From Nautilus pompilius (Eukaryota; Mollusca; Cephalopoda; Nautilida; Nautilidae), in the NCBI GenBank assembly GCA_018389105.1, contig JACATO010001094.1, positions 204,001 to 268,000 of the forward strand: DNA of 64,000 nucleotides, read 5' to 3'. Position numbers and translations under genes: made by a program. The notes under the pieces were generated by a model. The model had not been told where the DNA came from, did no database searches, and worked only from the letters and a program-made list of their open reading frames with translations. Position 1 is the stretch's first letter, and each line of letters opens with the position of its first letter. This document shows positions 1-58,000 of the stretch, piece after piece.

Positions 1-1425
1 TGAGCATGTAGACAAGTGTTTAGTTTTTCAATGTAACAAGGAATTCTAAGTGCAAGATCAATTAAATATGCACGAATGCTCCTTGATCTCCATAGTTATG
101 TCCTTAAGATTTTCTAGAAAATGATTGGTTTTAAAATTAAGGTGAATACTGGTAAACACATTTAAAGGCATAAGTATAAGATTCTTAAACATGAGACGAG
201 ACAACATTTGTCTCATGTTTGTGGCACAGTTGAATGTTATGCATCATGCAAATGGCTAAGTGGTATTTTATAACTCTGAAATGTGAAGTTTTTTGGTATA
301 CAGTAATTTAAATAACTTGATCTGAGAATTGTTTAAATTCTGTAAATGTCAATGAAAGGTAATAGTTCATCCATGATGATCCTTGTTTTTTCTTGATGCA
401 TTTGAATGGTTCTTCACCTTTGTTAAAATCTTAGAGCAAGTCTAGAAATGGGAAAATGAGTTTAAAATAAACCATTATAGAAAAATTTTAGTATCATACT
501 AAAGATGAATTTCAAAAAATTGATTGAATGTCAGTTCCTCTTAAATGATATCAAAAACAAATGATACTTGGCATTCCATTAACCTTAATATTGTGACTCA
601 ACCAGGTCTGCAGGCACTTTGGCCTTAGTATTTATACTTACATATAAAATTTAATCAGATTGAAAGCCTTTTGTGTAATTATTCATGTTTGGTAGCATTT
701 AAAAGTCCAGCTAACAAGTTTGACCCAATTCCATTGTTGCCTGAATAGATGTTTACTTTGTTTGCATGGAATACCAGCAGCATTCATTGGTTTGTTGCTC
801 TTCCTCAGAAGAATGTTACTGAGGAGGTGGTGGTGGGGGGAAGGGTAGATGCAAATTTCTAGTACTTTTAAGAACTCAAAACTGTAACAGTTTTTCTGAT
901 TATCTAAAATCAGATATTTTAGATTACAAAGCATTAGCAAAAAGCAATGTTTGTTTTCATAACTTGTCAGATTGCATTATAACAAAATGCTAATATTTAC
1001 CTTGAGAATTTTAAGCTTTCCTCCTCCCAATACTTCATTTACTAGGTCCAGGAGAGAGAGAGAGAAGGCAATGTGCTGTTAAATTAAACATTTTGATTCT
1101 AGTGCATATATGCACCAAAAATGCTAGTGAAATATTCACTGAAGAAAGATGCTAAACTCTGATTTAACTAACCCTTATGACAACAGGAATGCAACTGTTC
1201 ATCCTAGTCTTGAAGCTTTGGGATAGGAGATTTAGTCCTAGTTCTCATAGGAACATCTGAGATGTTGAAAATCTTAATGCGGTTGGGTGGTTTGGTTTTT
1301 TAAAGTCAGGCTAAAATATTATTACTAGTCACTAGCTAGATGACTGCTTCCAAATGCCAAAGAAACCGCGAATACGCGGGGGTCGACTGTATATTCACAT
1401 GGTTTTAAATCATTTCTTATTTCAG
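1..1425 (+). other. QKI: Intron of the QKI-like gene (5' part lies outside the window)
   Basis: This AT-rich, CpG-poor stretch ends at the acceptor TTATTTCAG before the first exon seen here. That exon starts with two bases completing a split codon, so at least one upstream coding exon (start codon and most of the QUA1 dimerisation region) must lie before base 1. I see no coding exon in it. A short GA repeat lies near 1050. A CpG-dense patch with a small hairpin lies at 1366-1379, about 50 bases before the acceptor. Confidence 0.7.
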
Positions 1426-1559
1426 AAATTAACAGGATACGATCAGCGTTGTTTCAACATAAGGGGACAAACAGGGATACATTATCTTTACCAGTATCAG
1501 ATGGCCAACCAGTTACATTATCACAAAAGTTGTATGTGCCAGTAAAGGAACACCCAGAG
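1426..1559 (+). CDS. QKI: QKI-like exon: end of QUA1 and start of KH region
   Basis: The exon lies between TTTCAG and GAG|GTAAAT. Two bases complete a split codon, then 44 codons are open: [10 protein letters not shown] (the end of QUA1, matching the EEIxRVR region of Quaking), a variable linker, and [12 protein letters not shown], which in the family directly precedes the KH core. The frame is fixed by the next exon, which starts in phase 0 with [12 protein letters not shown]. An ACTAAC motif lies at 1578-1583, 18 bases past the donor. Confidence 0.9.
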
Positions 1560-4500
1560 GTAAATATTACACCAGTAACTAACTTTTCATAGGAAAAACT
1601 AATTTAAGTCAATACATTTCTAAAACTATTTAGATTTGACTCTTTTAGTATATTAAAATTTTAATGTACTAAAAGCTAAAGATATTAAAGGGAAAGGACA
1701 GCTTAAGTTTGAAATCTCCTTGCAAGGAAAAATTGAGTATTTTAAATCACAGGCAGTCATCAAGGTGTTATTGAACTGGGTCATAATTATCACTTGAGTT
1801 CCAGCCACTATGGTGATTAACCAACTCATTTGGTTAACTGACAGTTGCTGATCGGGAGAAGCAGGTTCATTTGAATTTTCATTTGCTTTAAAAATGTAAA
1901 TGCTTCTTGCATGTACTGTTTAGATAGTCATACATGAAAAATAATGCATGCTGTGTAACAGATGTATTCAGTTATTTTACTTATCACTTGGGGTGAGCTA
2001 TACTGATTCTAGAACTTTGAAATTTTTTTTTTGCAAACATTTCTTTCCTTCCATAGCACTGTTTGAATCTAAACCAGTAACCAAAATTGTCTTGTATGTT
2101 TTAACAACAACAAGTATTCATTATTAAAATATAAAAATCTATTGTCGCAATGTAAATATTTTTTTTTAGAGATGCATTTATAAAGTAAAGCTGTAAAAAA
2201 TTTAATTTACATTTTGATAGTTGACTAAATAGTGTAACAAAATATCAAAACAAATGCTTAATTTGTGACATCAAACAAAATAAAATTTGAATTACCTCAG
2301 TACTTCATCAACATGTAATCTTGATCCTGAAAGATTATATATAGCTACTTATCTGGCTGTGGCTGGAGAGATTTGGTAACTACAGTTAATGGCAGAAATG
2401 TGTATGTATTAAATTTTCTTTTGCAGTTCAATTTTGTTGGACGAATATTAGGACCAAGGGGTATGACAGCTAAGGAATTGGAGCAATTTACTGGCTGTAA
2501 AATTATGGTTAGAGGAAAAGGCTCCATGAGGGATAAAGTAAAGGTGAGTGCTCTAAGTAAGGTATGAACTGACATGAATAATCATGTTGCATTTAATACT
2601 ACTTGGTAATTTAAAGGGCTGTAATTGATCTAAATTTTGGACTCTGCCTACCCAAAATGTTTGAGCTTTTACAAATATTTAAATTGTGGCCAGATTAGTA
2701 TTTAATGATTCCTAAATGTTGCTCTAAATTTGTGACATCACAAGTGTTTCAGTAAAAACTATCTGGAGTTCCATAGCGCATTATTTTAAGAGTTGGCCTT
2801 TTAATACCATCAGATTGGCTACAGTACTAAGTCCTTTTGAAAAATTGTGGGTAGGTCTTTAGGTTCATATATGTATAGCTAGATTGGTATTAGTGATGCC
2901 AGTTATTGATAGCCTACCGTTTTGTTAGAGGTGCACTTTTGATTAAATTTAGTGTAGAATTTATAATTTTAGACTGCTCATCTAGTGAAAAGTTGCTGTA
3001 TTTATTGATTGAATCTAACTTCCTGTTCTTTAGTTGTCATGCTTCTATGGATGTATGCTTCTAGATAGTCAGATGTTAATTTTCACCATTTTATCCTTTT
3101 GAGACATGTGACTTAAATTTGTTGCTGCTAATTGTCTAATCATTTATAAGCAGAACATATTCTGTATGGGTCTTCTACCACATAATAAACAACTCTTTTT
3201 GTAGATTATATCCCTTCATCTATCTAGTGTATATTTAGTTATGCCATTTGAGTTTCTTTGAACAGGGCTGCACCCTCCCCCCAAATTTCACCAAACAGAT
3301 AGTAACAATCCACAACATAGGGTTCTCATTTTTCTAAGTGCTTGCATTACAATCAACTCTTAGTGAAAATGCATGTCCTTTACATATGTGGATCAACCAA
3401 CACTACCTTTGAAAGGCTTAATTTTAAGATGTACATGATATTTTCCAAACAGGCATTCTGGATTTCCCTTTTGCTAGGGATGGGCTTTATAATCCTGATT
3501 TCATACTGATAACTTTCCTTTATTGTTAAATTCTTTGAAATGATTTAAAATTTAAGTACTACTTACAGTACATCTAATGCAGTAAACTAAATTTATTGCA
3601 GGAGGAAATGAACAAAGGTAAACCTAATTGGGAACACTTAAATGAAGAGTTACATGTGTTGATCACAGTAGAAGATGCACCAAATAGGGCTGAAATCAAA
3701 CTTCAGAAGGCAGTTGATGAAGTGAAGCGACTTCTGGTGCCAGCAGTAAGTACCTCAGTTGTACAGCTTCATTATTGACTAACTACTGTAATCAGCATGG
3801 CATGGCCCAGCTGAGCCTAGCTTTCTTTTACTAGTTCTGTTAACACTACACTAACAGGCAAGAACAGACTTAAGCTTATTAATTTACAAGCAGGATTAAG
3901 AATTTAATGTATGTAGACTTCTGAATGTTTTTTTTAAACTTATGAATCATGATTTAGTGGTTTAGCTTAAAATTTAATGTTCTCATTTTCTCGTTTGGTT
4001 TTACATGGCTGAAGTTAGGCCAAAAAGTTTAAATGCTTGGACATTTTAATATTTCATAACTAAAAATCCTCTTAGCAAAAAGAAATTGAAGAAATTAATT
4101 TTTTGAAGTAGCCTCAAGTTTTGTTCTGAGTCTGAATATAAAGAAATTGGACTCATATTTTGATATAAAAATTGATCAAACTGTTTAATGGCAATAAATT
4201 CTAAAACTTGCATTGCCATCCATATCACTGCTGTGTTGACATTCATTCAGATGTCTTTTTAAAAATGAAAATAATAAACAAAGCCACATGGTGAGGCTCA
4301 GTATCTTAATTGCTATTTCAAAAAAATATTTGAGCCAGACTTCCATTAGTTCTGGTTTAATTATTGGGTTTTGGAATTTTAATAGAAATCAGATTTCATG
4401 AGAAATAATAATAAAAAAAAATATGCAAATTGGTCAGTAGGGTAGAATACATGGTACTAGCAATATTTTGTAAATAAACTATAATAGTACATTTAATTCT

Positions 4501-7500
4501 CAATTCTTTTTGCCTGTTAGTAGTGGTAAGTGGTATTAATCCAAATCTAACCATGTGAATCAACCATGGTAGTGGTGTATGGTAAATTTCAGCTGCATCT
4601 ACTAGTCATTAAATGCTGGAAATAACTGATTTTTTTTTGAAAAGTTATCAACATTATTAATACAAAATTCTTTAAAACTATCAAGTTAGATAAAAAATCT
4701 TTTCCAGAGTTAGGCTTTTAGACTTATGATTCTACTTTTTAAAACAAGTAGAGTTTAATTTACTAATTTATTTAGTGTAATTTTCCTTTCATTCATCTGG
4801 TTTCCTTCCCTTTCAAAAACTTTTTTCAAGGTAGTTTTGTTAATTTAACTTTACTTTCTCTTCCAGCTTGTATATGTAATTGGTGTTTACTAAATATCAG
4901 TTGACTTTAAATACTGAACCTCAAAAAATAGAATATGCTAGTACAAAAATAAGTGTTTACAAGCCTGTAGTTCTTGTATGGCACGCACGTTTTTATTCTG
5001 GTTGTATAGGACCTGCATATTGATCTATCTTTAAAAGCAACAAAATCAGCTAAAGGAAGCCATGGTGCTGGTTGAAAAAATGATTGGATAAAGAGTGACA
5101 TTGGCAAAAAAGACTGATCATCACTGACTCCAATAAAAGATTGTACAGGTCCTGGTTATCTACCAAATCAAAATCCAACCACGGAATATTATTGCTCCAT
5201 TCTTCAACCAGGGCATCAGGCTGCCTCTATCAAACTGATTATACTGGGTAATGGCACAGCTAGCAAATTGTTTGTCTCTAGACTGTTGATGCCTAGGCAG
5301 AATCTACTTATCTGTGAAAGGAACATATCGACTTTTCATCTAGTCTTGATGTTGTCACCCATTGTTGTAGTGTTAGAATGCCACAGCAAGTGGTATGCAG
5401 CCAAGAATACTGCTGTCCTTGGGCAACCTGAACAAGTTTTCTATGAACTGGTGTAGAAATGACACTGCAGTGAATATACTAGTGGGAAGCAGTGACGGTC
5501 TGTCATCTCTCCAGGCCTTCAGAATTCAAGAACCATCTGGTTACGGTATTAAATTGGCCATTTTTGTCACCTAGGCATTCCTAAACTAATCTAAAGAATA
5601 GGTTGTGGAAGTGATTTGCATATGACTTTCCATGGTTCTTTGGAAGATTAAAAATGCACGTTGTACAAGTATACTTGGTTTTCTCAGTATACAGATTATT
5701 TTGAACCCTCAACCAGAATATGAACGTTTCAACATTCCATAAAACACTAGCTTGGAAATGCTTATTTTTTTTTTTTCTGTTGGTGTATTTTAATTTCCTG
5801 TCATAACAGATTTTTGAGGAATTCTGGATTAATTTTATACTAAGGAGATTTTGAAATGGCTTTGCTATAAAGACATCTGGCTGGATTTTACTCAAATGTT
5901 CCTAGTACAAGCATACATCAGATGCATCATAGGTTTAACAAACTTTTGTTCAAGTGAAAATTTGGATGTAAATCCCACCTTCCCCCTGTTTAAACATCCT
6001 TATTGCTCTAAACAAGTTGGTTATAAATCTAAATATGAAATGATTGAGTTATTTACATTTCAAGTTTACTGCATTGAGATGTCAATCATTACCTGGTATC
6101 CAAATCTTTCACAAAGAAACTAGTCTAGTCATTTAGAATTGATGTAATTAAATTTTATAAATACTGCAGCATATCAGAATCTTCCCTTTTTATTCAAACT
6201 TGTCATTTGTCCTTAGGAAATGTTCTTATTTATCCCAAACTGTTTTTATTACATGCTTCGAGGAAGGAACCTTTGACTTAACATGTAAGTAAATAGATTT
6301 GTAGTAATTGTGCAGTTAGTCATTGATTTGTCGTCTGGTTAGCTTTTTCTTCCAGAGTACAAAAACAGCTGTTTTGGTTAGCTTTCCTTTAAATTATTGC
6401 TATAAGAATTTTGCTCAGTATTTCAAGTTTGTTTTTGAAGATAAAAAATAGATGCACAAATCAAATGATTGATGCACTGAAATTCAGATCTTCCGTTAGT
6501 AGTACAGTCATGCTTCACTATAATATTTATTCAGATTTATGGAAGGATGCTATAGATGTGCACAATTTTGATTTCTTAATGTATGAAAAATTTCAAAATA
6601 GAATTCTGGTCCCTTCCATTCTCAGAGTAATGAATTTTCAGTTGAGTTACTGTGAACAAATTTTTTAAATGTTCCTTTTAGATCTTTTATTTTGGACTCA
6701 GTATTTTACTTTGAAATGGTATTTTGTATGAGTGTAAAATAACTTCAATTTTAAAATCTTCAAATCTAAAACTGTAATGGAAGGTCTTTATTAGAATATA
6801 GCTACAAACCTAGTGTACTTACAGGTAAATAATGGATTACCAGTGTTAATGTTTCACTGGTTTTTAATCATTGCGCTAAATTTCTGAACTGGCTGTTTAT
6901 AAGCAACAAGCTTTCGTCCATTAAATTAAATGACTACAAATCATTATTCAAGAATTTAGTTTTGTAGATATCTTTTTGTACAGAAGAAAATTGTCAACTT
7001 TTCTTATGTTGCTTTAGGATCTGAAGAAATTAGTGAAGTGTGACTGTAAATGATAAAGGGGTCTAATAGTAAAATTCTGATAATGAGCTAATGAGCTTAA
7101 AGCAAAACATGATTCTATACCCTAAAATATTGGATGGTTTTCTTTTTGTATACCATATTGGATTAAAAAAGTTATTGGAATTTTATTTTATAATTGTTTG
7201 ATTTCTTAAATCATGAAATAAACTGTGATATTTATAAATTGTTTCAGGTAAATTTTCCAGTATGTTAATCAGCTGCTGCTCAGTCCCTAAATACTAGATC
7301 AAGCAGCCATAATGTTAGGAAAAATCCTTTACAAGACTTAATCCAGAATGGTCATAGAAACCATCCTTTTTCATCTTAAATGTTTATGCTTCAGGTTTTG
7401 TCAACTGAATGTTTCTGCTTAAAGTTATTGGCTCATCTTTTCCTTTTGTTTCCTCCCTTTCCTGTACCTTTATTTTTTTAACAGCTAAAGAATCGAGAGA

Positions 7501-10500
7501 CTATACATTTTGCTACTTTAATTATGAGTGCACAGCATGAAAAAGCAAGTATGACCATGAAGTGTGGGTTGGGTAGTGTGCACACTCTACGTGACCAGCC
7601 CCAACTCTATCTTTTAACGTGTGAATTTCTACTTGAAGGGTTTCGATGACTTTGAAACTCCAGATGCATAATCCATTAGGCCTGTTTGAAATCTAAGCTT
7701 GATTTGGCAACTAAGATGGCATAAATCATCCAGCTTTAGAATTGTTTTACTGAAAAATATGCTGATTTTAAATAGGTTGCAATTACCTAATTCTCTGGCA
7801 GGGAACATGCAAACTAGGATGGCTGCAAAATTTCTTGGATTAGTTTAAAATCATGTGCAAGTGACAACTAGCCTGAATTGAGATGGGTATATTAGAGCCT
7901 AGAATGTCAGTTGGATTTTTGAAATGGTCAGCTTAGAAAAAAAAATAATCCTAAAAGATTGGATCATTTTGATGTAAGAAATGCTTGTGCAGTTTCTATG
8001 TGCTAATAAATTTTTCTTAAAAGAAATTGCTACATACTAACTTATTAAAAGAATTAAGATGAAATAGGTGCTAACATGTGAATGTTATGAGCCTTTTCAG
8101 AAGATTTAAAAAAAAAAGGCTTTATTTTTAATCTTGTTCCTTATTTCCATCTACTAATTGTCTTTCATTGCTAATCACCCCTGCAACCCATTTGTTCTCT
8201 TTCAGCCAGAGGGTGAGGATGAACTGAAGAAAATGCAATTGATGGAACTTGCTATCTTAAATGGAACTTACAGAGATTCCAAATCTGCTTCATGCATTCC
8301 GCGTAAGTTTGCCAACCTAGTGCATGCTGTCTGTAATACATTGTAATGAGTTCATTTTGTGTCTGTCATTTTTTCAGCCTGAAGGAGAAGATGACTTAAA
8401 GAAAAGACAACTTATGGAGTTAGCTATCATAAACGGCACATATCGTGACACATCTAAACCGTCTACTACCTCGACACCACAACCATCCACTTCTAATCGT
8501 AAGTTCTAGAAGTGATTGCAGTTGTGTGCAGTGGTATCAAGGCTTAGGTTTCTCCTGTAGTTGCCCGCCCATCCATCCAGCAAACTCTTGTAAAGTCTGC
8601 ATGTGTATTGCTGGGAACTGATCTATGTAATCCTGGTATGGCTTCTAGTTTCTCACCCTGTCTTAATCATTGACCATTTGCACTTTTTAATATTTAAAAA
8701 ATTGAGTTTTCTCAGTTCCTTGCATGAGGATTTTAATACTTAGTTGCACACTCTAAATTGTTCAGTCTAATTTGGTTTTTGTATTTTGCTTTTAACTTAA
8801 TGATAAACTGGAACTGCTTCATGCAGCATCCCCTAAAACAAGCACTGCAGGAAACTTACTATCTGGTGGCATCTAACTACCAGTATTTTTTGTTCAGGCT
8901 ACATCACAACATTGCTTGAAACATTGAGAAAAAGACTGCTAGATTGATTATACACATTACTAATGATAAAAATCAACTTTCATTTCTAATCTTTCAGGTG
9001 TATTCTTTAGTTGCCAAAGAAAGCCTGATAAAAGACAACCTTAAACAGTATCTGGTTCTCTGGTCTACCTAAAAAAACACTAAAACAAAAATATAACCTT
9101 AAAACTGATGATTGATATTTCTATCCTTTTTAAACCCCTAAGTAGACTCTTATACCAGTGATTGTTTTACATAATTTGAAGCCAAAATTGAAATGTGAAA
9201 GCAAACAATTTTGGACTTTGTATATCTACATGTCTCTGAACTTTAAATAGTGCATCATGTTAGTTGGTTCACAGCAGTGGTTTTCAGAAACTTTTAAGCA
9301 TTTATTTCTGGGCCGAGTTATTAAATCTTGTGTTAAAGATTATTGATTTCTTGTTTTGTATCATGGCTGTGGTAGATCTGTTTTTGTTTTTGGTGCTAGT
9401 TCTTTGTTTAAACTGGTAACAAGACCAAGCTTTAACACTTGCCTAAAGAAGGCTTTAAAGTTTGTAGGTAGATAGGATTTATGGTATAAGCCAACATTTC
9501 CCAGTGGGACATTTTTCTGGCTACAAGATTAGAGATTGTGCTTACCAAGTTGGTTGCATGACCACTACATTAATATTTGTGTAGTGTTTAAAATTGTTTG
9601 ATATTGTTAAACATAGCTTTCTACCATAATAATCTGCTTATGGGCTGTGTAATACTAAGAAAAGCATTGTCTTCAATTTGGAACTTTGGTATTTTCAAAT
9701 TTGACTAAGTGTTTGTAGTGAATTCATTCAGCTTGGTTTGGTTTTATTAGTGTGAATATAAATGGTGTTCTCCTTAACTATGGTTGAAACCATTAGATGT
9801 AGCAAATATTAGTTTTGCTACATGTCAAATGAATATTTTCCTTCATCTTGGGCAGTAAAGACTGAAATGATTGAGGCAACAGTAACATTGATTTCTGTAA
9901 ACTTAATGCCATACTTCTGGAATACTAGTTATGGTAACAAATTCTAACTTCAAAAGCATAGTTTTATTAGTAGCAGACTGTGGCTTTCACCTAGCGTGGA
10001 GTATGTTCATTGTAGTCCTTATCATACAGATCAGTCATCAGCAAGATTCTTCAGTTTTCTACCAGCTAACTAACCAGCAGTTCAGAGAATTTATTTTAGA
10101 TTGCTCATACTTCTTGGAATAAATCTTGAACAAGATTGAAATGCTGCATTATTTTCAATATCTAGAAGTGAATGCAAATATTTAAATTGATTTTTGGAAA
10201 TATACTTAGGCTTGACTTTATTGGCAGATTGTCAGAATTTCTGGCCTAAGTTGGAATTTTTTTTTTTATAAACTGAATTAAGACTACAAAAATCATGTAG
10301 ATTATGTACTTCCTAATCTGACCCAAAAGATGATTTAAGAATTGGATTTTCTGATTATACACATAATTATAAAAGATACTTAATGTACATATCTGAAACT
10401 TAGTTATAAAAAGTTAGTGGACATCTGCTAGTTCTTAGATTTTTTTTTGGATAGACAGAAAATACTTCTAGACATGTTTGCATTTTCAAATGAGAGAATT

Positions 10501-13500
10501 TACATTGCAACATTGGATATCTACTCTAAGCATCCAGCAGTTGTGCTTCTTGGTCTGTCACCAGGTTCTTAGTTATTTGATAAGCTGCATGTTGAGCATT
10601 CAGATATGAGTTGCTGGGATGTGAATAAAATTTTAGCTGGCTTTCCCTAAATGAGCTTTCGTTTGTTTCTAATTTTATTTTGACTATTTTAAAATGGTAG
10701 GAAGTCTTTTTAGTCTGTTCAAATAACAAATATCCACACTAGTTGTTTACTTAGTGAAGTATAATTAAGTTGCAGTCAAATCCCAAATGTTAGAAATCAT
10801 GCATTCAGATTATTAAATATTCCTTGCTAATTAAAAATTTGCTTACATTAGTAAATCCTCTGGTTGTCTTTAGTGCCCCATTGTTTAAAATTGAAATATT
10901 AGTTTAAGATATTTCATGTTTGATTTCTTCAAAAACTTGAGAAAAATATAAATAGTTTAAAGAAATAATGGTTTTTTAAACTAATTGAACCCAGACAAAA
11001 TTCAAACCCCTGACATCTTCAAATGGCTAGACTTCATGCTGATATTTCTACCTTTCATGTGAATTCCTTATTAATGCCATGGTCTAGAATATTTTGGATT
11101 TTTCAATGCAGCTGTATGAATTTCAGCAGTTCTGACAACATTAACTATTACAAGTATATTGAACTATAAAATATCTATTTGCAAATTTTAAGTTTGAAAT
11201 GATTAACATTTAGGATTCAAACCGTGTGCATGCTAACCAGTTTTATTTAGTGCAACATGGATAGTATGTTAATTTGGTAACATTGTATATTGACAGCAGT
11301 AATGCTGTCTTAAACCCTTTCAGTAGAATACTGGAAAAATCAGTCTTTCACCAGGCTTGTACGTGTTTTTTTTTTTTTTTTTTTTCGGTATGCAGCCTTT
11401 TCTACCTGTATGTCAACTACTAATGCAGCAGTTCTTGTCTTTACTAATCAGGTTTTCTTAAGCTTGCCAAACCATGCCAGGTGAGACTTTTAATACATGC
11501 AATCCTGAATATTCTCATTTTTTGCTATATTTTGTCTTACAAGATTGTTCATGCACCTATTAGTTTAGTGATTTTTACATTTGTCTTTCCAAAAATGAGT
11601 GTTCATATTTAAAGTAAATAAAATTGATTAAAATTTTCCTTTGCTTTAATATTTCAGCAACTTAACTTTAAGATATGAAGTTTTTTCCTTTTAAATAGAA
11701 AGGCCATGAAGTTTTATTTTTTGAAGCAGCATGTTAATTCAAGTTTTTTTGAAATTTGAAAAATGTAACTCCATTCCAAAACAGTAATTAAAAAATGTGC
11801 TGCTTTTTGAAACATTTAGTGGACTGTATTATAGAAATTCTGTCTGATGCCAAGTTTACATGTGATTGCTTTTCCGTGGCTTAACTTAAGTTGAGCACTC
11901 TGGTGTAGTGTGTTCCTGCTTTGTCTGTTTTTAATTCCCACGTGCAAATCTTATAGCGTCCTATCCTTAAGATGGGCAGGTAATAGTTCTTTTCCTTTGT
12001 TGGGAGAGGGACATGCCTTAGGTGTGGGCAAAAGGATTTCTGCTTTTGACTTGTGTGCCTTCTAGAAGTCCTTCACTCACCACGCAACAGCTATTTCTAG
12101 TTTAAAACTCTGAAGTATTCACCAACAATAATTTCATTGGGATTATTTTGCTTGCAAAATGTTTTTCACACTTGAGCTTGGTCTGATTTGGTTTTTAGCT
12201 ATTTTGTCCAAGAATGAACCTCCAACATTCTAAGCAAGAATGTCATATCTTCAAGGAAAAGATTCAATATTCAACTCCTAGATAGCTTGTGTGGTTCTGA
12301 ATTAGTCAGCTGTGAATGGTCCTAGTTTTGGTTTTGATCCTCTGCCCCTGGTTGTTTGTGTAAACTTATATCAGAAATATTTAACCTAGCTAACCACTGT
12401 TAAGAATACTTTGTGGTGGATGTCTTATCTTAATTCTCATGATAGTTTTAAAATAAATATTTTCCTGCTTGCCCATTATGCTAATCTAAATCTGCTTCAA
12501 AATTTCTAAATAGGTTAGCAAAAGAAAACTGAATCAAAATTGCTAAAACCAGATCAATGGTATATACTTCTGGATAGCTGATCATTAAGTTAAAGCCATT
12601 CATTCATATTGTACACTTTTTATATAAAGAACAAAAAACAAACTTGCTAGTTCCTAGTAAAAGCTTTTCCAGAATTGAAGATTTGAAGGGAATCCTTAAG
12701 TTATTACTGGAATGGCATCTTTCAGTTTGGTTAATTTATTGTAACACTAATATTGGTAATGTCTTGATAAAAGCAAGTGTTAGATGGAAATTTGAATTTG
12801 CTAACTGCTTGTTTTCAGGAAATTTCTTAGTTTTTTACCAATTTAAAGACAAAAACATGCCAGCTAGGAATTGCTTGGTTTTTCAATAATTTAATGTAAA
12901 TTGTGCTCTAGTAATTTCATTGCAATGTTGTTGTTTTTAAAATCTATCCAATAGTACGTAAAACTCGTAAGTTAGATGCTGCTGCTATATTGGATGCATC
13001 TCTAGATCTCATTGCCTGAAAATTCTTTATCAACATTTCAGCAAACTTTTATATTGTCATTTTCATGCAGTCCTTAAGAAATTAAACATTGAAAAAAGTT
13101 AACTTTGGCCAAGAAAATGATCTGAATAAGTATTGTGTACTGAAATGTTTGTAAATGTCACCTCGGCAGTTAAAATGTCCATTATTTCAGTATACAGCTT
13201 TTTATTTTTGTGGGGAATGCTTTAAGATACAGAAAAATGGGTGTCTAGCTCTTCCCTTCCCTGTAAGGGACCCTGGTTCTTCAAATAAAAGTTTGATGCA
13301 TTAATATTGTGTAGTTGTATAGCAAATTAAATTTCACTTAAGTTTCAGTAGAAACTATAATTGAATGTTTGCTATTGATAGAATTTGCTTTTGCATCTGA
13401 TTTGTTTGTTGCTTAATGTTAGCTGTGACTGCAATTAAACCCATTGGTAAACTATTTTTCCTTCCCTGAGCTCTAACTTTACTGTATCTGTATATAGGCT

Positions 13501-16500
13501 ATGTAATTTGTCAAACTGTATTTTACGTTGCATTTAAGTAAATACTTATTTTAGAATGGGTGTTTAAATGAACTGGTCCACTGATCTATAGTTCTGTGTA
13601 CTAGTATTTTGTAAGTTTTAAAAATACTTCTGGATCATTTTAATGATGTCTATGCACCTATTCTTTTCTCAATGGATTAAAAATAGTGAATCATTCACAT
13701 AGCAAGCTTTTTGAAATTGCAGTATTTAATTCTTGAAGGTGGTTTAAAAAGTACAATTCAAATTTTTCTGATCATTTACTAAAGTGTTCAGGCTTGGAAG
13801 ATCTTAGTTTATACTGGGTAATTGATAGTATTATTGCAGAACTCAAATTTTGAAAGTCATGTTTTGTTTTCATAAACCTTTTGAGGTGTAGATTTTGTTA
13901 ACATTGATTTGATGATATCCATAATTTGAGATTGTAATACACCAGCAGTACAGGATTTAACTAAAAACTTCTTGATTGCTGTTTAAAACTAATTGTAACT
14001 TTTCTGTTGGTTCCAGACACTCACAGACTCATAGCCCCGCAGTTAGCCATTCCACAGATTCGCTCAGCCACACCTGCTGGGGCTCCAATCATACTAGCCC
14101 CACGAGTGCCCACAATCTCAACGAGCACAGGAATACTGAATGGTGCTCCGCCACCACTGGTATCACCAACAGATCCCAGTTTCTTGTATAACCCGTATGA
14201 GTACCCGTATGCACTTAATCCAGCTGCTGCAACTATTTTGGAATATCCGACCTTAGATCAGTCTCCTGGTATGTTTGTGAGATAGTTAACTTTTTTTTTT
14301 TTTTTTTTGCCTTGAAATTATTGGGAGTTTGGTACAGTTATTGCTATTTACAAAAAATTTATAAAATATTTAAATTTAAAAAGTGGTAAACCTGTGTGAA
14401 AGTGAAACGTATTTATAAATGAGGAAAAGGTTTAAAATATGGATTTTAAATAAAAAAAAAAACCGAATGCATTCCAATGTTTGTAATACTCTGTAATGTT
14501 CCCCTACTCTTGACATAACTATTAGATATCTAGTGCTGGCTGTGATAACACCGGTATTCTCTAATAGAAATTGGGTAGCTAAAACTTGCATCCAGTCAAC
14601 AAAATAGTTGAGAACAAATTTTTGATAGTTAATGGCAAATCTTATTACTTGATTTCAATACCTGTAGTATTGTTGAAGGTTTTTAGATTTGTTTAGTACC
14701 CATTTGTGAAGCTTCCAAAATTTAATTTTAATTTGTTTTTCAAGTTTATTTTTAAGAATAAAAGCCAGAATTTGTTTACAATTCACTTTTTCCTTGAAAA
14801 TGTCAAATTGTTGATCTTTGAACTGTTTTTAAGTGAAACTTAGTTATTTTGTATTAGTAACTTGTTTTAATGTTTATTTAAATACAAATCTCCATGAAAT
14901 TTTATGTGTCAATTTCATTTATATCTGCACTTCCAATAGTGAAACTGAAACACTTCCATAAACAAGTTCATGTTATAGAAGTTTGTTTTAAAAAAATCTT
15001 TAGTATTCTCTAAACTTCAGTTAATTTTTTAAACTTAGTGGAAAATTTTTTTTTTTTTAGAAACAAATCCAGTAATGCAGTCTCCATGTAATATTCAAGT
15101 GATTTGTAGCAGTGTTGTTGGCTTTATAACTGAAGGCAGGGTTCTTAAGCTGCCAGAAGATCATAACGGTTATTTAGCATCTTGACTGGTAAAACTTTCT
15201 ATTCTGGGTTAAGACCCAAATTTGCAGTGATAAATATTCGGTAATTAGTTTTTCTTAGAGCTAATTTTCTAAGACATCAATCATGAGTTGTTTACCAGCA
15301 GAGATGCTTCTGGTAAGTGTTTGGGTTAAACTCAGTAAATAATGGGTAAGTCAGGGTTAGTTAAATGTTATGTAGATTTGTCTAACTGGAATCATTGGAG
15401 TACAATGTCTGCTAAACATTGCTGTCCAATTAGTGGGATGGGAATGTGGGGTTTCCCTACCCAAAGAAGAGTATCAGTCTGACACTTTGTTTGATGTTAC
15501 AAGAATTCTGGAATATTGTAGGTCCCATGCATAAAATCAGGAGAACCCTCGCGGGAGTTCGAGAACACCCATACACGCGGGTGGCTCTACCGTGAGAACA
15601 GGTTAGTCCCATTTGATGTTTGTTTGTTTAAAAAATTTTAAATAAAACTTTGTTTCAGCTACAAAAACGCATTGTTGTAAAAGTTATATATTAGTTTTAT
15701 CTCATACATATCATTTTCTTATTTGACTACATTATTATTGTTACTGTTATGAAGCAACTCTTGCCATTATATTAGTCTTCAAGAACATGTTTATAGAACC
15801 ATATGCTTGTTAGTCAGAATTCTTATAAAAACTATAAAAGCAATTTTGTAGTTTTCCATGTTTGGATACTGGTAAAAAAAATTCCATTTGATTAAGCTAC
15901 ATTAAGTAAAAAAAATTTGAAATACTTCAGACTGCACTAACAGTATCTGCCATTTATATTTTTTACAATTTTGTGCAGATTTGTCAAAGTCAGCAATTCA
16001 TAATAAATCTTTATGGCTATTAGCTTGGGGTTCCAAAGAATCTGAAATCTAAACTTTGGCCATGATAGGCACTTGGTTATCTGCTGGATGTTAAACATGT
16101 GGAGAGCAATAATTGTATTTAAGTTTGTCAACAATTGTTAATTAAACAGTTAAGGTTTAAAATATGTTCTTGGAGACTGTTAAGGAACTTTCTTATGGAC
16201 CATATAAACATGAAATCCTTCTTGGTGTGGTCATCACTAAATGTTCATTTTCTTCAAAAGAATAAAATGATTATTGACAGTGTAATGAACAATCAGGCTA
16301 GAGCTGTTGTAGGTATGTAGTTATACAAAATGTCCAGTTTTCATTTGTTTGCTTGTTGAAAACATGTGACTGGACATGTCTGGGTTTGCCTGTTTCATTG
16401 TAGTATGGCATTCCTAATATCAGCTGTGATATTAGAAAATGTATTTCAAATCTGTATTAGTGAGATTGACTTATTCAAGATATTAGCATGGCCTTTCAGG

Positions 16501-20600: not shown

Positions 20601-23600
20601 GATTTCATTCTTTCACTTACTAATCGTTTTCTTGTTCTCTAATCCTGCTTTAGCTTTCTCACAAAAAGAAACTGCTTTTACTCACCATCACTTCTATATT
20701 TTTGCTGCTGCAGCAAGTTTGTAATAATGAATACGTGAATTTTCTACGCAAAGGGGTTTTGCTGATGCGTTCCTTTCCCTATCATCACCTTATGCTTGCT
20801 GACATGACTAAAGCAAGATTCGACACCTCATATTTTTTAAAGTGATAATTGCTCAATATTGCTCAATTGTACATGAATTGTTTCATAAACAAGATTTTAT
20901 ATCCCTTGTTAACCATGACATTTGGCTGGTTTAAAATGGTGCTTTGAAAGTGCTCAAATTAATACATTTAAGTTTATTTTTTATTATAATTCAAAAGGGT
21001 ATCTCTTACTGTTTTTGTATAAAAAAGGGTACATTTTACAATCAGTTTTGTACGTATATGTATATATTTTTTCTCCCATTCTCCCTGAGTGACAGTCTTT
21101 AGTGGAGGGATGTTCATAATTTCTAATAATTTTACGTATTTGAAGTGGTTGGCAGAGTTGATATCAGAATGCTGCTCCAAGGATGTCTTGTAGCAGCTTC
21201 ATCTTGATTGAAGATCTAACCTGAAGAGAGACTCTAACATACTGTAGAAAGATTAGAACCTCAAATAAAAAATAACTCTTGGTCTTTTTTTTTAAGTTTG
21301 TCTGATGTTGACTTGCCTGTATGCATGGACTTCTTTTTTTTTTATAACTACCCCCACCCCAAAGTGTATTAGGTTAAATGTTGCAGGATGTTTTGATATC
21401 TTCTGAAGATGTTAACAAAATAAGATTGAATTTCAGGCTTTATTTTAGAAATTTTTCATCTTTTTTTTTTACTAGGAGCATTCAGATGAATTCTGGCTGA
21501 AATAACATCACTGTAATGGAAATATGGCTCTATTTCATTTGAATGTTCCTAGGGTTTTTTTTTAAATAGCTGAATATGACTTAAATGGGATGAATTAGCT
21601 GTTTTAATATTTTTTAATTGTGAATTTAACACATTTTGATTATAACATCTCCATTTAATAAGAGTGTTCCTGCTTGTTTGCAAGTTTTCAACTATAGAGA
21701 AGTCAGGTTTCAGGGCACAAACGTCTGGAAAATTGGTAATTCATGATTGTTTCTAGGGCTAACCAAACCCCTTCCAATTCAATGAAAAAATAATTAATCC
21801 TTTAAATTGTGAGTGTCATTTTAATGAACTACTATGCAGTTTTTAGTGATAGGACAAGTTCGTGCACATCATGTTAGTCTAATACCCAACTAAAATGGAT
21901 TACTTGAACTACACCATCTCAAGTATTGGGAATGACTTGTGGAAACATTTCATTTGATACAGAAATGAAGATTTAAAAGCAGTTTATAAAATTTTGTAAA
22001 TTTTGCTATTAAATATAAATTAATAAAACAATTCATGAGTTGAACTAAACTCATGCCAGTATGATTCCCTATACATTATTTTGATTTGTTTTGAGATGAG
22101 AGTACTTGGTTTTTTTAAGAAACAAACCAACAAAATTTAAACAGGTGCATTTTTCTTTTGTTCAAAGAATAAAATGATTTTGGTATGAACAGAAGGAACT
22201 TAACTTTTTACATTTTCAAAAATGTGCTTATGGGGGTTTAATTTCCTTGAAGTTTAAAATCTTGCATAATTTGATGCAATGGAGTACATAATTATTTTTC
22301 CTTGAAGTTTAAAATCTTGCATAATTTGATGCAATGGAGTACATAATTATTTTTCAACTAATTAGGACATTGAAATGGAGAAGGGAGGGTTTCCATTTGA
22401 ATGTCCCTCTTATTTTTTCTAATTTTACTTAAAATTTTTTTTATACTTACATTGCACTTCTGATAGACCCCTACAACTGGTATTTGCATACTATCAAGTA
22501 ATTTAAAGTTTGTCATGTTTTGGTCAGCAATCAAATTTCCCATGGTTGCTCATCTAAATTGAGTATTAAATATACAAGCTGGCCCACCCTGATCAGGTGC
22601 TTCTAATCCCTGCTAGCACTGGTTGTGGGGATTAAAATGGGCAAACCTATGTAGCTGGCTAGGGAAGAATAAGAAACTATGGTATGAAGCTTCCTTAAGT
22701 AAATCCAGTGTTAATGGTACGCTGTAAATGCGATAGATTCTCAATTTTTTATGAGCTGGTTTGGCAGCATTAATTTCTTTAATGTTTTGTAGTTTGTTTG
22801 CTAATTAAACTCGCCACTCAATCTTTGGTAGTTGCAGGACGATGAAATGGGAGGTGGTTGTATGAATAATGTAGGTGAATATGACAGTTCTAAACATTCT
22901 TCTATAATGCAGCCATAGGTCCATTCTGAAATGCTTGGTTAGTATTTCTAAAATGGAAGCTTCCCATACCTCATCCATACTGACTGCTAGTATTCATAAA
23001 TGGGTTTGGTACATGGCCTTTCTTTGCTAATAGCTATATTATTAGTCTGACCATTTTAAAAGTAAAAGCGCAGCATTATGAAGTGTTAAATATGTACATC
23101 GCACCTAATAACGTCCTTACGGAAAAATATTTTCTGGTGGTATATGGTTCAGTTAATCTTCTTTAGTAAAAGGAGGAAGGAATCTCTCTACTCTAAACAG
23201 TTTCCTGCTTATAATGATTCTAGATTAAGGTTTTTTTTTTTTTTTTTTTCATAACAAAATTCTTAGCCAAGTGCAGTAATATTTTAGACTAAACATTCAG
23301 GGAATTAACTGGTTTCATGCTTAAAAGTTATTCTAATTTATTTTCCTCATTTCCATCTATTATCATAGCTGCTGACTAGGGTCTCATGCTTGCTAAATAT
23401 TGAAGCCATTCTTGGAATCTGGGAAGACGCCTGGTGCCAATGAGTCTGGTGGTGTAGTCTTGTAGTAGCTGAGGAAAACCAAATCTACCAGCTGCAGAGA
23501 GAAGGACTCTGGCTATTCAACAACCACCTCCACTATGAGTAGAATGGAGGGGACTGGAAAGCTGTTATCATGCTATAGGGATAAAGACTAGTAGTGCAAA

Positions 23601-44783: not shown

Positions 44784-45746
44784 CTCTCTCTATCTCTCTG
44801 TACCTGACGTCATCTCTCTCTCTGTACCTGACGTCACCTCTCTCTCTCTCTGTACCTGACGTCACCTCTCTCTCTCTCTGTACCTGACGTCACCTCTCTC
44901 TCTCTCTGTACCTGACGTCACCTCTCTCTCTCTCTGTACCTGACGTCACCTCTCTCTCTCTCTGTACCTGACGTCACCTCTCTCTCTCTCTGTACCTGAC
45001 GTCACCTCTCTCTCTCTGTACCTGACGTCATCTCTCTCTCTCTCTGTACCTGACGTCACCTCTCTCTCTCTCTGTACCTGACGTCATCTCTCTCTCTGTA
45101 CCTGACGTCATCTCTCTCTCTCTCTGTACCTGACGTCATCTCTCTCTCTCTCTCTCTCTGTACCTGACGTCATCTCTCTCTCTCTCTGTACCTGACGTCA
45201 CCTCTCTATCTCTCTGTACCTAACGTCATCTCTCTCTCTGTACCTGACGTCACCTCTCTCTCTCTGTACCTGACGTCACCTCTCTCTCTCTGTACCTGAC
45301 GTCATCTCTCTCTCTCTCTGTACCTGACGTCACCTCTCTCTCTCTCTGTACCTGACGTCACCTCTCTCTCTGTACCTGACGTCACCTCTCTCTCTGTACC
45401 TGACGTCATCTCTCTCTCTATACCTGACGTCACCTCTCTCTCTCTCTGTACCTGACGTCATCTCTCTCTGTACCTGACGTCACCTCTCTCTCTCTATTTA
45501 CCTGACGTCATCTCTCTCTCTGTACCTGACGTCACCTCTCTCTCACTCTCTCTTTCTCTACGTACTGACGTCATGTCCCTCCCTCTATCTACTGATGTCA
45601 TGTATCTCACTACTGACGTCATCTCTCTCTCTTTCTCTCTCTCTGTACCTGACGTCATCTCTCTCTCTGCACTGACGTCATCTCTCTCTGCACTGACGTC
45701 ATCTCTCTCTCTCTCTCTGTTCTGACGTCATCTCTCTCTCTCTCTA
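44784..45746 (+). repeat. Minisatellite of CRE sites: TGTACCTGACGTCA(C/T)C(TC)n
   Basis: Units of about 25-35 bp consist of CTGTACCTGACGTCA followed by a variable CT tract. I count 33 perfect TGACGTCA palindromes from 44805 to 45730, plus two one-base variants (TAACGTCA, TGATGTCA). TGACGTCA is the consensus cAMP-response element bound by CREB/ATF factors. Units near the 3' end diverge (TACGTACTGACGTCATG, TGCACTGACGTCA). A solitary related unit lies at about 32600-32643. No promoter or gene is evident beside it. Confidence 0.95.
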
Positions 45747-53925: not shown

Positions 53926-53982
<57 letters not shown>

Positions 53983-54129
53983 GATGTTTGGTTGGACAAA
54001 AAATATCCGATAGTCGGTCCAGCATCACGTCGTTTCTTCTTCTTCCTCTCTTCCAGTAAAAAGTCAGGTAATGAGAGTGGATGGATGGATGGGAGATTCT
54101 CATTGAAAGCCAACTTGGCGCCCCCTTAA

Positions 54130-54203
<74 letters not shown>

Positions 54204-54376
54204 GATGTTTGGTTGGACAAAAAATATCCGATAGTCGGTCCAGCATCACGTCGTTTCTTCTTCTTCCTCTCTTCCAGTAAAAAGTCAGGTAATGAGAGTG
54301 GATGGATGGATGGGAGATTCTCATTGAAAGCCAACTTGGCGCCCCCTTAATTTTATTATTATTATTATTATTATTA

Positions 54377-54410
<34 letters not shown>

Positions 54411-55042: not shown

Positions 55043-58000
55043 GTATGTTTACACCTACCGAAGTCCATCTCCCTCGTCGGCGGCTCCTTCTCCCGGCGAA
55101 CCTTCCCCAAAAGGAAAAGTCAGGCCCTCCGTCTGGCCGAGGGGGTTGGGGTTGGATCCGGTTCGGCCGAGACATTTCCCCTATCCCTCAGGTCGTCCAC
55201 CCTCGGTATCTGGTCTTACACCGATACCAGTAAAACCAACCCCGTCCCCTCCTCTTTCGCTGGTGGAACCCGAAACCAGCCGTCCACAAGCGAGGTGGAG
55301 CTTCGTAAAGAACGGAAAAGAGGAAGGAATTCCAGTAATGGAGTGGAGTTGGCCTCCACGAATATGCCCACAGACGGGTTGAATAGGTACTTCCGGAAAA
55401 TGGCAGCCCTGTATATATATAACACGTCCGGCCCCCCCACCCACTATAGCATAGAAATGTGTATATATATATATATAACACGTCCGGCCCCCCCACCCAC
55501 TATAGCATAGAAATGTGTATTATATATAATATAACACGTCCGGCCCCCCACCCACTATAGCATAGAAATGTGTGTATATATATATATAACACGTCCGGCC
55601 CCCCACCCACTATAACATAGAAATGTGTGTATATATATATATATAACACGTCCGGCCCCCCCACCCACTATAACATAGAAATGTGTATATATATATATAT
55701 AACACGTCCGGCCCCCCACCCACTATAACATAGAAATGTGTATATATATTATATATATATAACACGTCCGGCCCCCCCACCCACTATAACATAGAAATGT
55801 GTGTATATATATATATATAACACGTCCGGCCCCCCCACTATAACATAGAAATGTGTGTATATATATATATAACACGTCCGGCCCCCCCCACCCACTATAA
55901 CATAGAAATGTGTGTATATATATTATATATAACACGTCCGGCCCCCCACTATAACATAGAAATGTGTGTATATATATATATATAACACGTCCGGCCCCCC
56001 ACCCACTATAACATAGAAATGTGTGTATATATATATATATAACACGTCCGGCCCCCCCACCCACTATAACCTAGAAATGTGTGTGTATATATATATATAA
56101 CACGTCCGGCCCCCCCACCCACTATAACATAGAAATGTGTGTATAATATATATATAACACGTCCGGCCCCCCCCACCCACTATAACATAGAAATGTGTGT
56201 ATATATATATAACACGTCCGGCCCCCCACCCACTATAACATAGAAATGTGTATATATATATATATATAACACGTCCGGCCCCCCCACCCACTATAACATA
56301 GAAATGTGTATATATATATAATATAACACGTCCGGCCCCCCACCCACTATAACATAGAAATGTGTGTATATATATATATATATAACACGTCCGGCCCCCC
56401 ACCCACTATAACATAGAAATGTGTGTATATATATATATAACACGTCCGGCCCCCCACCCACTATAACATAGAAATGTGTGTGTATATATATATATAACAC
56501 GTCCGCCCCCCCACCCACTATAACATAGAAATGTGTGTATATATATATATAACACGTCCGGCCCCCCACCCACTATAACATAGAAATGTGTGTATATATA
56601 TATATAACACGTCCGGCCCCCCCACCCACTATAACATAGAAATGTGTGTGTATATATATATATATAACACGTCCGGCCCCCCCACCCACTATAACATAGA
56701 AATGTGTGTATATATATATATATAACACGTCCGGCCCCCCCACCCACTATAACATAGAAATGTGTGTATATATATATATATAACACGTCCGGCCCCCCCA
56801 CCCACTATAACATAGAAATGTGTATATATATATATATAACACGTCCGGCCCCCCACCCACTATAACATAGAAATGTGTGTATATATATATATATAACACG
56901 TCCGGCCCCCCACCCACTATAACATAGAAATGTGTGTGTATATATATATATATAACACGTCCGGCCCCCCACCCACTATAACATAGAAATGTGTGTGTAT
57001 ATATATATATATAACACGTCCGGCCCCCCACCCAACTATAGCATAGAAATTTAAAAACAGCTACTGCACGGAACAGTCGTTAGCCTGGCACTGCCGTGCA
57101 GACATCTTCGATGAATATGCTTTAAGAAAAGTGTTGAGTAAATACTTAGGGAGGGTGGCAGTGTAAGACTGAAGACTTCCCGCCCCTCTGCACACAACTG
57201 TACACATAGCTAACCCTAATTGGAAACCTGTCACTCCTTGAATTCAAAAATCATATCTTAAATTTCCGATGTTAATCAGTCCTTTAATTCGGAAGTTCCA
57301 TACTACCAGTTGGAAAGAAAGAAAGAAAAACTTTTTAAATCTCAGATTATTTCATTGTCTAAACTTAAAAGTTTAAAAACTGAATAATTTTGTACATAGG
57401 AAGTAATCTCTACATAGAACAAAACAATAAGAACTCCATCTTTGTTTTTTTATTTTTTGTTAATAATACTTTTCCAAAGAGAATGAATTAAATCACGTAA
57501 ATTACACATTTATGAAGAATGCCAAGAATGTTCTGGTATAGTGATGGAAATTGAATGTGATTATTAAAATAAAATGTCTTTGGATGTCTAGAAGTTCAGT
57601 CCTAGATTCTGATGCATTGACTTGTGAACAGCTTAAAATGTTCTGTCTTTTCACATTTTCAAAGGGTATTCCATGGTTTGAACTATCGCCACCAAAAATT
57701 GTCAGTTGTAAAAAATAATTTTGGATCTGGCAAAATATTTTTTAACTTCAGTTGCATAAATAAATCTGGAGGCAATACATGTGTGTTTTAGATGTTTCTT
57801 AGGTAGGTTTTATTACTTATATTTTGAACATGATGACTTGCAAAAAGGGGTATGAAAATGCCATCATGCTAATATACTACCCTCACTCTGCTGTGATCAA
57901 CAGTATCACTCATTGATTGCATCAGTTGACTTCATTATTTTAGATCATCTATGGACATGTGAATGTGATTATGTCTCACAACTTAAGACGTTTCCTTTTT

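Follow-up and report, generated by a model that had tools for sequence, protein, structure and literature searches.

Tandem QUA2 exons in a Quaking gene of Nautilus pompilius, very probably used one at a time

The Quaking gene of Nautilus pompilius raises the question of how two adjacent exons that encode the same segment of one RNA-binding protein, QUA2, come to be used, and what a choice between them could do. Both exons, here called A and B, lie in the window, a stretch of 64,000 nucleotides (nt) that corresponds to contig C1049:204001-268000 within the 727.6-Mb genome. Very probably they arose by an old tandem duplication in the only Quaking gene detected by STAR_dimer and KH-QUA2 genome searches taken jointly, and each mature mRNA uses one of the two. 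By its layout, the pair would belong to a known class, mutually exclusive tandem duplicated exons. Papers are cited below by PubMed Central (PMC) identifier.

An initial annotation of this DNA had described two neighboring QUA2 exons separated by a short intron, and its coordinates and sequences agreed exactly with a second reading (Table 1). AG precedes and GT follows each exon, and both 5' splice sites read C/GTAAGT. As that annotation had also stated, A and B both enter in phase 0 and exit in phase 1, and exon 6 accepts either in frame. Isoform A is open over 315 amino acids (aa) and isoform B over 323 aa, lengths that reflect a choice of start codon because the frame of exon 1 is open further upstream and contains another ATG there. 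Joint use was said to break the frame, and it does: in A+B mRNA a stop falls at the second codon across the A-B join, giving 208 aa, and lies 116 nt before the next junction. Omission of both exons leads to a stop in exon 6 after 180 aa, 234 nt before the exon 6/7 junction. Since double inclusion and double skipping both truncate the product, the whole protein is made by single use of A or B alone, and both premature stops sit where nonsense-mediated decay would be expected. B does have Arg in place of Met and a different tail with Ser, Thr and Pro, as first read; Ser and Thr account for 10 of the 16 tail residues in B versus 3 of 8 in A.

Direct evidence of exon use is provided by a decayed, intronless copy of a Quaking mRNA, recovered through a KH-exon search on contig C2039 (approximately 197,368 down to 196,580, minus strand). 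This retrocopy is truncated at its 5' end and has several internal deletions, but part of exon 2 and exons 3, 4, A and 6 follow one another directly joined, without the introns of 867, 1058 and 4460 nt and without everything between A and exon 6. Offered an A+B cDNA, the retrocopy aligns to A and to 0 of the 121 nt of B. Identical positions number 574 over the A cDNA, 548 over the B cDNA and 543 over A+B. When the copy is forced onto the B cDNA, 94 of the 121 nt of B align with 48 identities, as against 70/97 for A; the alignment of exon 6 improves a little in that case (130 versus 125 identical positions), but the total is still lower. For the QUA2 segment, local scores are 63 (A) and 18 (B), and 300 shuffles reach at most 22 and 25, respectively. 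At the 32 sites that discriminate A from B, the retrocopy matches A 22 times, B 4 times and neither 6 times. A was once spliced between exons 4 and 6, and B was skipped.

The retrocopy also dates the duplication in relative terms. It is 0.31 substitutions per site from its parent (564 of 754 sites identical). Its agreement with A places the A/B split before the copying event, which marks a point in time by which the two exons were already distinct. The copy continues past the exon 6 splice site into 14269-14457 and ends near AATAAA, so its source was a short transcript that ended in exon 6 with the MFVR-stop terminus. Read-through into 14269-14457 corresponds to a short Quaking isoform beside the form that uses exon 7.

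Comparison of A and B with each other indicates sustained selection on both. The 72 nt of the 24-codon core show 22 differences, including 16 at third codon positions, whereas only three residues change (21/24 identical); by the Nei-Gojobori method, the proportion of synonymous differences (pS) is saturated and that of nonsynonymous differences (pN) is 0.11. Among 400,000 simulated copies with 22 random changes (200,000 per exon), none kept at least 21 of the 24 residues, and the best kept 17. Taken together, the excess of nucleotide over residue changes and this simulation argue that the QUA2 sequence has been maintained in both exons ever since their divergence. Queried with exon B, the genome returned two matches at E<=0.001, namely exons A and B (three candidates scored), and outside the exons no homology was found between the DNA flanking A and that flanking B, the best blastn match being 8 nt. 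The sole fossil mRNA shows A and not B, as would fit a B exon that is decaying or rarely used; this explanation is highly improbable, given that B has intact splice sites and a frame open in register and has kept 21 of 24 core residues despite saturated silent sites.

The surrounding gene is identified as Quaking by its domains. Pfam finds the QUA1 dimerization domain (PF16544, STAR_dimer) and a single KH domain followed by QUA2 (PF22675) above cut-off in both isoforms, and phmmer aligns exon 4 plus QUA2 with 4jvh (QKI) at E 1.9e-36 with A and 2.4e-35 with B. The genome-wide STAR_dimer search yielded one match above cut-off; it can miss split or divergent QUA1 exons, as it did in the KHDRBS-like gene on contig C2. 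No second intact Quaking gene appeared among the nine matches of the genome KH-QUA2 search, whose other KH/QUA2 matches include the gene on C2, which we take to be KHDRBS-like by resemblance, and an SF1-like gene on contig C2010. The QUA2 exon of the latter (C2010:437479-437583) reads LRRQQLRELALLNGTLREND and has Gln at the site that is Met in A and Arg in B. A tblastn search of both isoforms against 288 kb of the contig (one 5000-N gap) revealed no extra QUA2 or KH copies in the gene; beyond the known exons, matches were all at E 2 or worse.

How one exon might be chosen is suggested by the sequence upstream of A. Regulated exon choice, perhaps self-controlled, is favored over a pair of RNA specificities. 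Exon B would also be used, probably in other tissues or stages, and the choice would be made at the branch region of exon A, where two branch-site-like motifs together make up a bipartite Quaking response element, their adenosines 31 and 48 nt before the intron end. At high levels, Quaking protein would block SF1 at this site, so that A would be skipped and B favored, forming a self-regulating switch. The pattern ACUAAY-N1-20-UAAY occurs in the last 60 nt of two of the seven introns, those before A and before exon 6, and is absent before B; the background for such a bipartite site is 62 of 4506 overlapping windows. In mammals, where an exon has two ACUAAC branch sites, QKI represses it by keeping SF1 away (PMC13004596), and in the mouse QKI controls the splicing of its own transcripts (PMC5548867). 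Autoregulation of this kind is what we infer for the nautilus gene, in a concrete and testable form.

A different proposal is that exclusivity is physical, the 75-nt intron placing the branch point of B too near the 5' splice site of A. This is a serious contender, if somewhat short of an even chance. Measured from that splice site, branch candidates with the sequence TAAT occur at 33 and 43 nt, within the threshold of about 50 nt reported for OGDH (PMC7969005). The intron is also short for what was surveyed of this genome, where estimates for 38 introns from two other gene families go no lower than 80 nt. However, further branch candidates are predicted at 51 nt (TTCAT) and 65 nt (TCAT), and two chaperonin introns, read base by base, appear to be spliced at 80 and 94 nt; these two lengths were preferred for the continuity they give the domain profile, and alternative GT-AG readings that also preserve the frame come out shorter, for example 68 and 58 nt. 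All other survey lengths are estimates from neighboring profile matches: 18 myosin pairs from 74 matches with profile gaps of -12 to 12 (smallest intron 165 nt), and 20 chaperonin pairs from 48 matches with profile gaps of -20 to 12, which supplied the 80-nt minimum. A steric block as the sole cause is not established, as a length of 75 nt does not stand out clearly from the normal range. RNA structure was also considered as an exclusivity device and rejected, the fold of 8100-8520 being no better than shuffled sequence (z -0.24; 35 of 100 as good). A search of the window with Rfam gave nothing at gathering scores.

The apparent splicing of an 80-nt intron elsewhere in the genome bears on whether exclusivity is strict at all. 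Some A+B mRNA might escape decay, and its 208-aa product, which retains QUA1, KH and the QUA2 of A, could compete with the full forms as a STAR-only protein. Such an outcome is improbable: the A+B stop lies in a typical decay context, and the one ancestral transcript known here contains A alone.

Several points weigh against one-at-a-time use of A and B under Quaking control. The transcript evidence consists of A alone and comes from the retrocopy, which is silent on B; that B is used we infer. A DNA search with exons 4-B-6 found no B-type retrocopy, its three matches all falling in the gene itself, although this search was insensitive and also missed the known retrocopy. The genome appears to splice introns nearly as short as the one between A and B, and a length of 75 nt would not by itself have to prevent A from being joined to B. 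Any branch site tends to look like ACUAAY, making an occurrence in two of seven introns suggestive only, and Quaking sites are not enriched over window positions 1-16000 (seven on the plus strand, six on the minus strand). Finally, of the two motifs at A, the second (CUAAU) amounts to a half-site rather than a full ACUAAY. Conversion of either element to a half-site raised exon inclusion in an eLife reporter study (PMC13004596), and the half-site at A therefore counts somewhat against strong repression.

What the swap does to the protein is a separate matter. In the alignment with 4jvh, using QKI residue numbers from PMC5626755, the core differences between A and B are Glu/Asp at 188, Met/Arg at 192 and Leu/Ile at 200. 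The initial annotation noted that QUA2 contacts RNA in Quaking proteins, which is borne out by mutant data: the K190A/Q193A double mutant loses approximately 2-fold in affinity in vitro and 5-fold in signal by photoactivatable ribonucleoside-enhanced crosslinking and immunoprecipitation (PAR-CLIP) (PMC5626755). It further proposed that the Met-to-Arg change in the QUA2 helix gives A and B two RNA-binding specificities, a claim that fares poorly and is unlikely. Residue 192 is flanked by the contact residues K190 and Q193, and GLD-1 (Lys/Ile at 192/200) and Qk-1 (Met/Leu) do differ in preference at hexamer position 5, for a reason left open in that work (PMC2905418). On the other hand, A and B share the contact residues K190 and Q193 unchanged, helix geometry places residue 192 about 200 degrees around the helix from 190 and about 100 from 193, and even loss of both contact side chains costs just the modest factor noted above in vitro. 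The consensus sites of GLD-1, STAR-2 and Qk-1 overlap, and the hexamer recognized by GLD-1 is similar even though this protein has Lys at the changed position (PMC2905418). Given this overlap, a changed RNA motif is not the likeliest outcome. The A and B proteins would instead differ mainly in affinity, signaling input or partners, more than in the RNA motif recognized.

Relatives of Quaking show which residues these positions can accommodate. Human SF1 has Met/Leu and yeast BBP has Gly/Leu at 192/200, and Drosophila HOW presumably has Ile at 200. Against GLD-1, phmmer scores B marginally better than A (1.3e-27 versus 2.7e-27). Mouse QKI has Met/Leu (PMC4873024), and HOW has Arg at 192 (PMC3315481), so the Arg of B is not new. 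By sequence, A resembles the vertebrate proteins and B the ecdysozoan ones. A scenario in which the duplication is early bilaterian or early protostome, after which vertebrates retained Met/Leu (type A), ecdysozoans retained Arg or Lys/Ile (type B) and the mollusc retained both, with Quaking itself switching at the A branch site, is decidedly speculative and quite unlikely as a whole.

The Arg of B also supplies the third basic residue that completes the basic patch of a motif proposed in HOW as a docking site for mitogen-activated protein kinase (MAPK). One tentative possibility, on the doubtful side, is that the swap tunes signaling over RNA choice, with B strengthening this docking motif, adding a Thr-Pro and rendering isoform B kinase-responsive. 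In HOW the motif is listed as a putative D-domain, and the protein is phosphorylated by MAPK/ERK and has Thr-Pro at residues 59 and 64 (PMC3315481). The nautilus gene encodes NTPEYL near its N terminus and TSTPQP in B only, and the tail of B has the larger Ser/Thr share. The docking motif was, however, proposed from sequence, Met in place of Arg may dock too, and the same D-domain is said to be conserved in QKI, which has Met (PMC3315481).

The features discussed are collected in Table 1. The Quaking gene extends from the QUA1 exon at C1049:187645 to window position 15595, with introns of 17651, 867, 1058, 4460, 75, 5518 and 1253 nt in order. Exons 1-4 measure 130+134+117+144 nt and bring the frame to phase 0 at the end of exon 4.

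Table 1. Exons and proposed regulatory elements of the Quaking gene, in window positions unless a contig is named
Feature	Position	Strand	Description
Exon 1 (QUA1)	C1049:187645-187774		outside the window; counted from the chosen ATG
Exon 2	1426..1559	+	linker after QUA1, start of KH region
Exon 3	2427..2543	+	loop segment
Exon 4	3602..3745	+	end of KH; 3' end in phase 0
Bipartite Quaking response element TACTAAT-N13-CTAAT (candidate)	8152..8175	+	branch region before A
Exon A	8206..8302	+	97 nt; QUA2 with Met/Leu, like vertebrate QKI; short tail SKSASCIP; in retrocopy
A-B intron	8303..8377	+	75 nt, GT-AG
Exon B	8378..8498	+	121 nt; QUA2 with Arg/Ile; Ser/Thr-rich tail with one Thr-Pro
Second bipartite Quaking response element (candidate) AACTAATTGTAAC	13987..13999	+	starts 30 nt before exon 6
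Exon 6	14017..14268	+	Pro/Tyr-rich region; common to isoforms A and B
Exon 6 read-through end	14269..14457	+	MFVR-stop, then 3' untranslated region to AATAAA; present in retrocopy
Exon 7	15522..15595	+	C-terminal tail; acceptor placed from frame and REHPY tail

The remainder of the window contains several repeats. At 44784-45741, a 28-bp unit with a cAMP response element (CRE)-like TGACGTCA in its consensus is repeated in tandem about 28 times, and a minisatellite at 55412-57050 has 28.8 copies of a 58-bp unit with 93% matches. A perfect 55-bp repeat (2.1 copies) occupies 22242-22355, and a 221-bp repeat (2.2 copies, 98%) occupies 53928-54410. The G+C content is 0.32-0.33 over 1-24 kb, where the Quaking gene lies, rises to 0.39 and is then 0.43-0.49 over 28-52 kb. 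Elsewhere in the genome, the hemocyanin domain, which marks molluscs, occurs in two runs of seven units (C557:780470-791999 and C1362:511129-522124), apparently two genes, the counts (14 matches) being lower bounds. Gastropod hemocyanin is described with eight units, and a count of seven points instead to a cephalopod.

Quaking proteins control the splicing, stability and localization of many mRNAs, and in the mammalian literature consulted their isoforms share one RNA-binding region. A splice-swapped RNA-contacting helix would be a natural experiment both on the role of QUA2 and on a regulator that sets its own form. Among Creative Commons-licensed papers in PMC, judged by titles and the openings of abstracts, there is no report of duplicated QUA2 exons. 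The main text of a human tandem exon survey mentions neither QKI nor quaking, which is weak evidence as it also lacks U2AF1 (PMC9741552). Public mollusc gene predictions may already show both isoforms.

Among known systems, vertebrate QKI belongs to the same family and has the same domain order; A matches it at Met and Leu, and QKI controls its own splicing (PMC5548867). Unlike the nautilus gene, its isoforms are described as differing at the 3' end while sharing KH-QUA1-QUA2, and no swappable QUA2 appears in those descriptions. Drosophila HOW presumably shares the REHPY tail, and we know of no alternative QUA2 for it. The QUA2 of B matches the HOW motif (PMC3315481). In vertebrate OGDH, exons 4a and 4b are mutually exclusive, the intron between them is short and branch points lie less than 50 nt from the 5' splice site, and Ogdh is reported to be sensitive to QKI depletion (PMC7969005). 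OGDH differs in being a metabolic enzyme, and its branch points have been mapped, whereas those of the nautilus gene are predicted. At RAI14 exon 11, two branch-site-like elements together form a Quaking response element (PMC13004596), as may be the case before A. The RAI14 exon is a cassette in a target gene, unlike exon A, which is part of the gene for Quaking, and of the two elements before A the second is a half-site.

The closest known analogue would be vertebrate U2AF1, as a functional parallel. Its exons 3 (3a) and Ab (3b) are tandem duplicated, mutually exclusive exons in the RNA-recognition region of a 3'-splice-site factor (PMC5224494, PMC6821156), few residues differ between them (7 aa), and double inclusion is sent to decay (PMC6821156). 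The nautilus pair involves another protein family and another exon, in a mollusc rather than a vertebrate, and whereas the U2AF1 isoforms are seen in RNA, here A alone is seen, in a fossil mRNA. The parallel suggests that swappable exons for RNA contact may have arisen on more than one occasion among factors acting at the branch site and 3' splice site.

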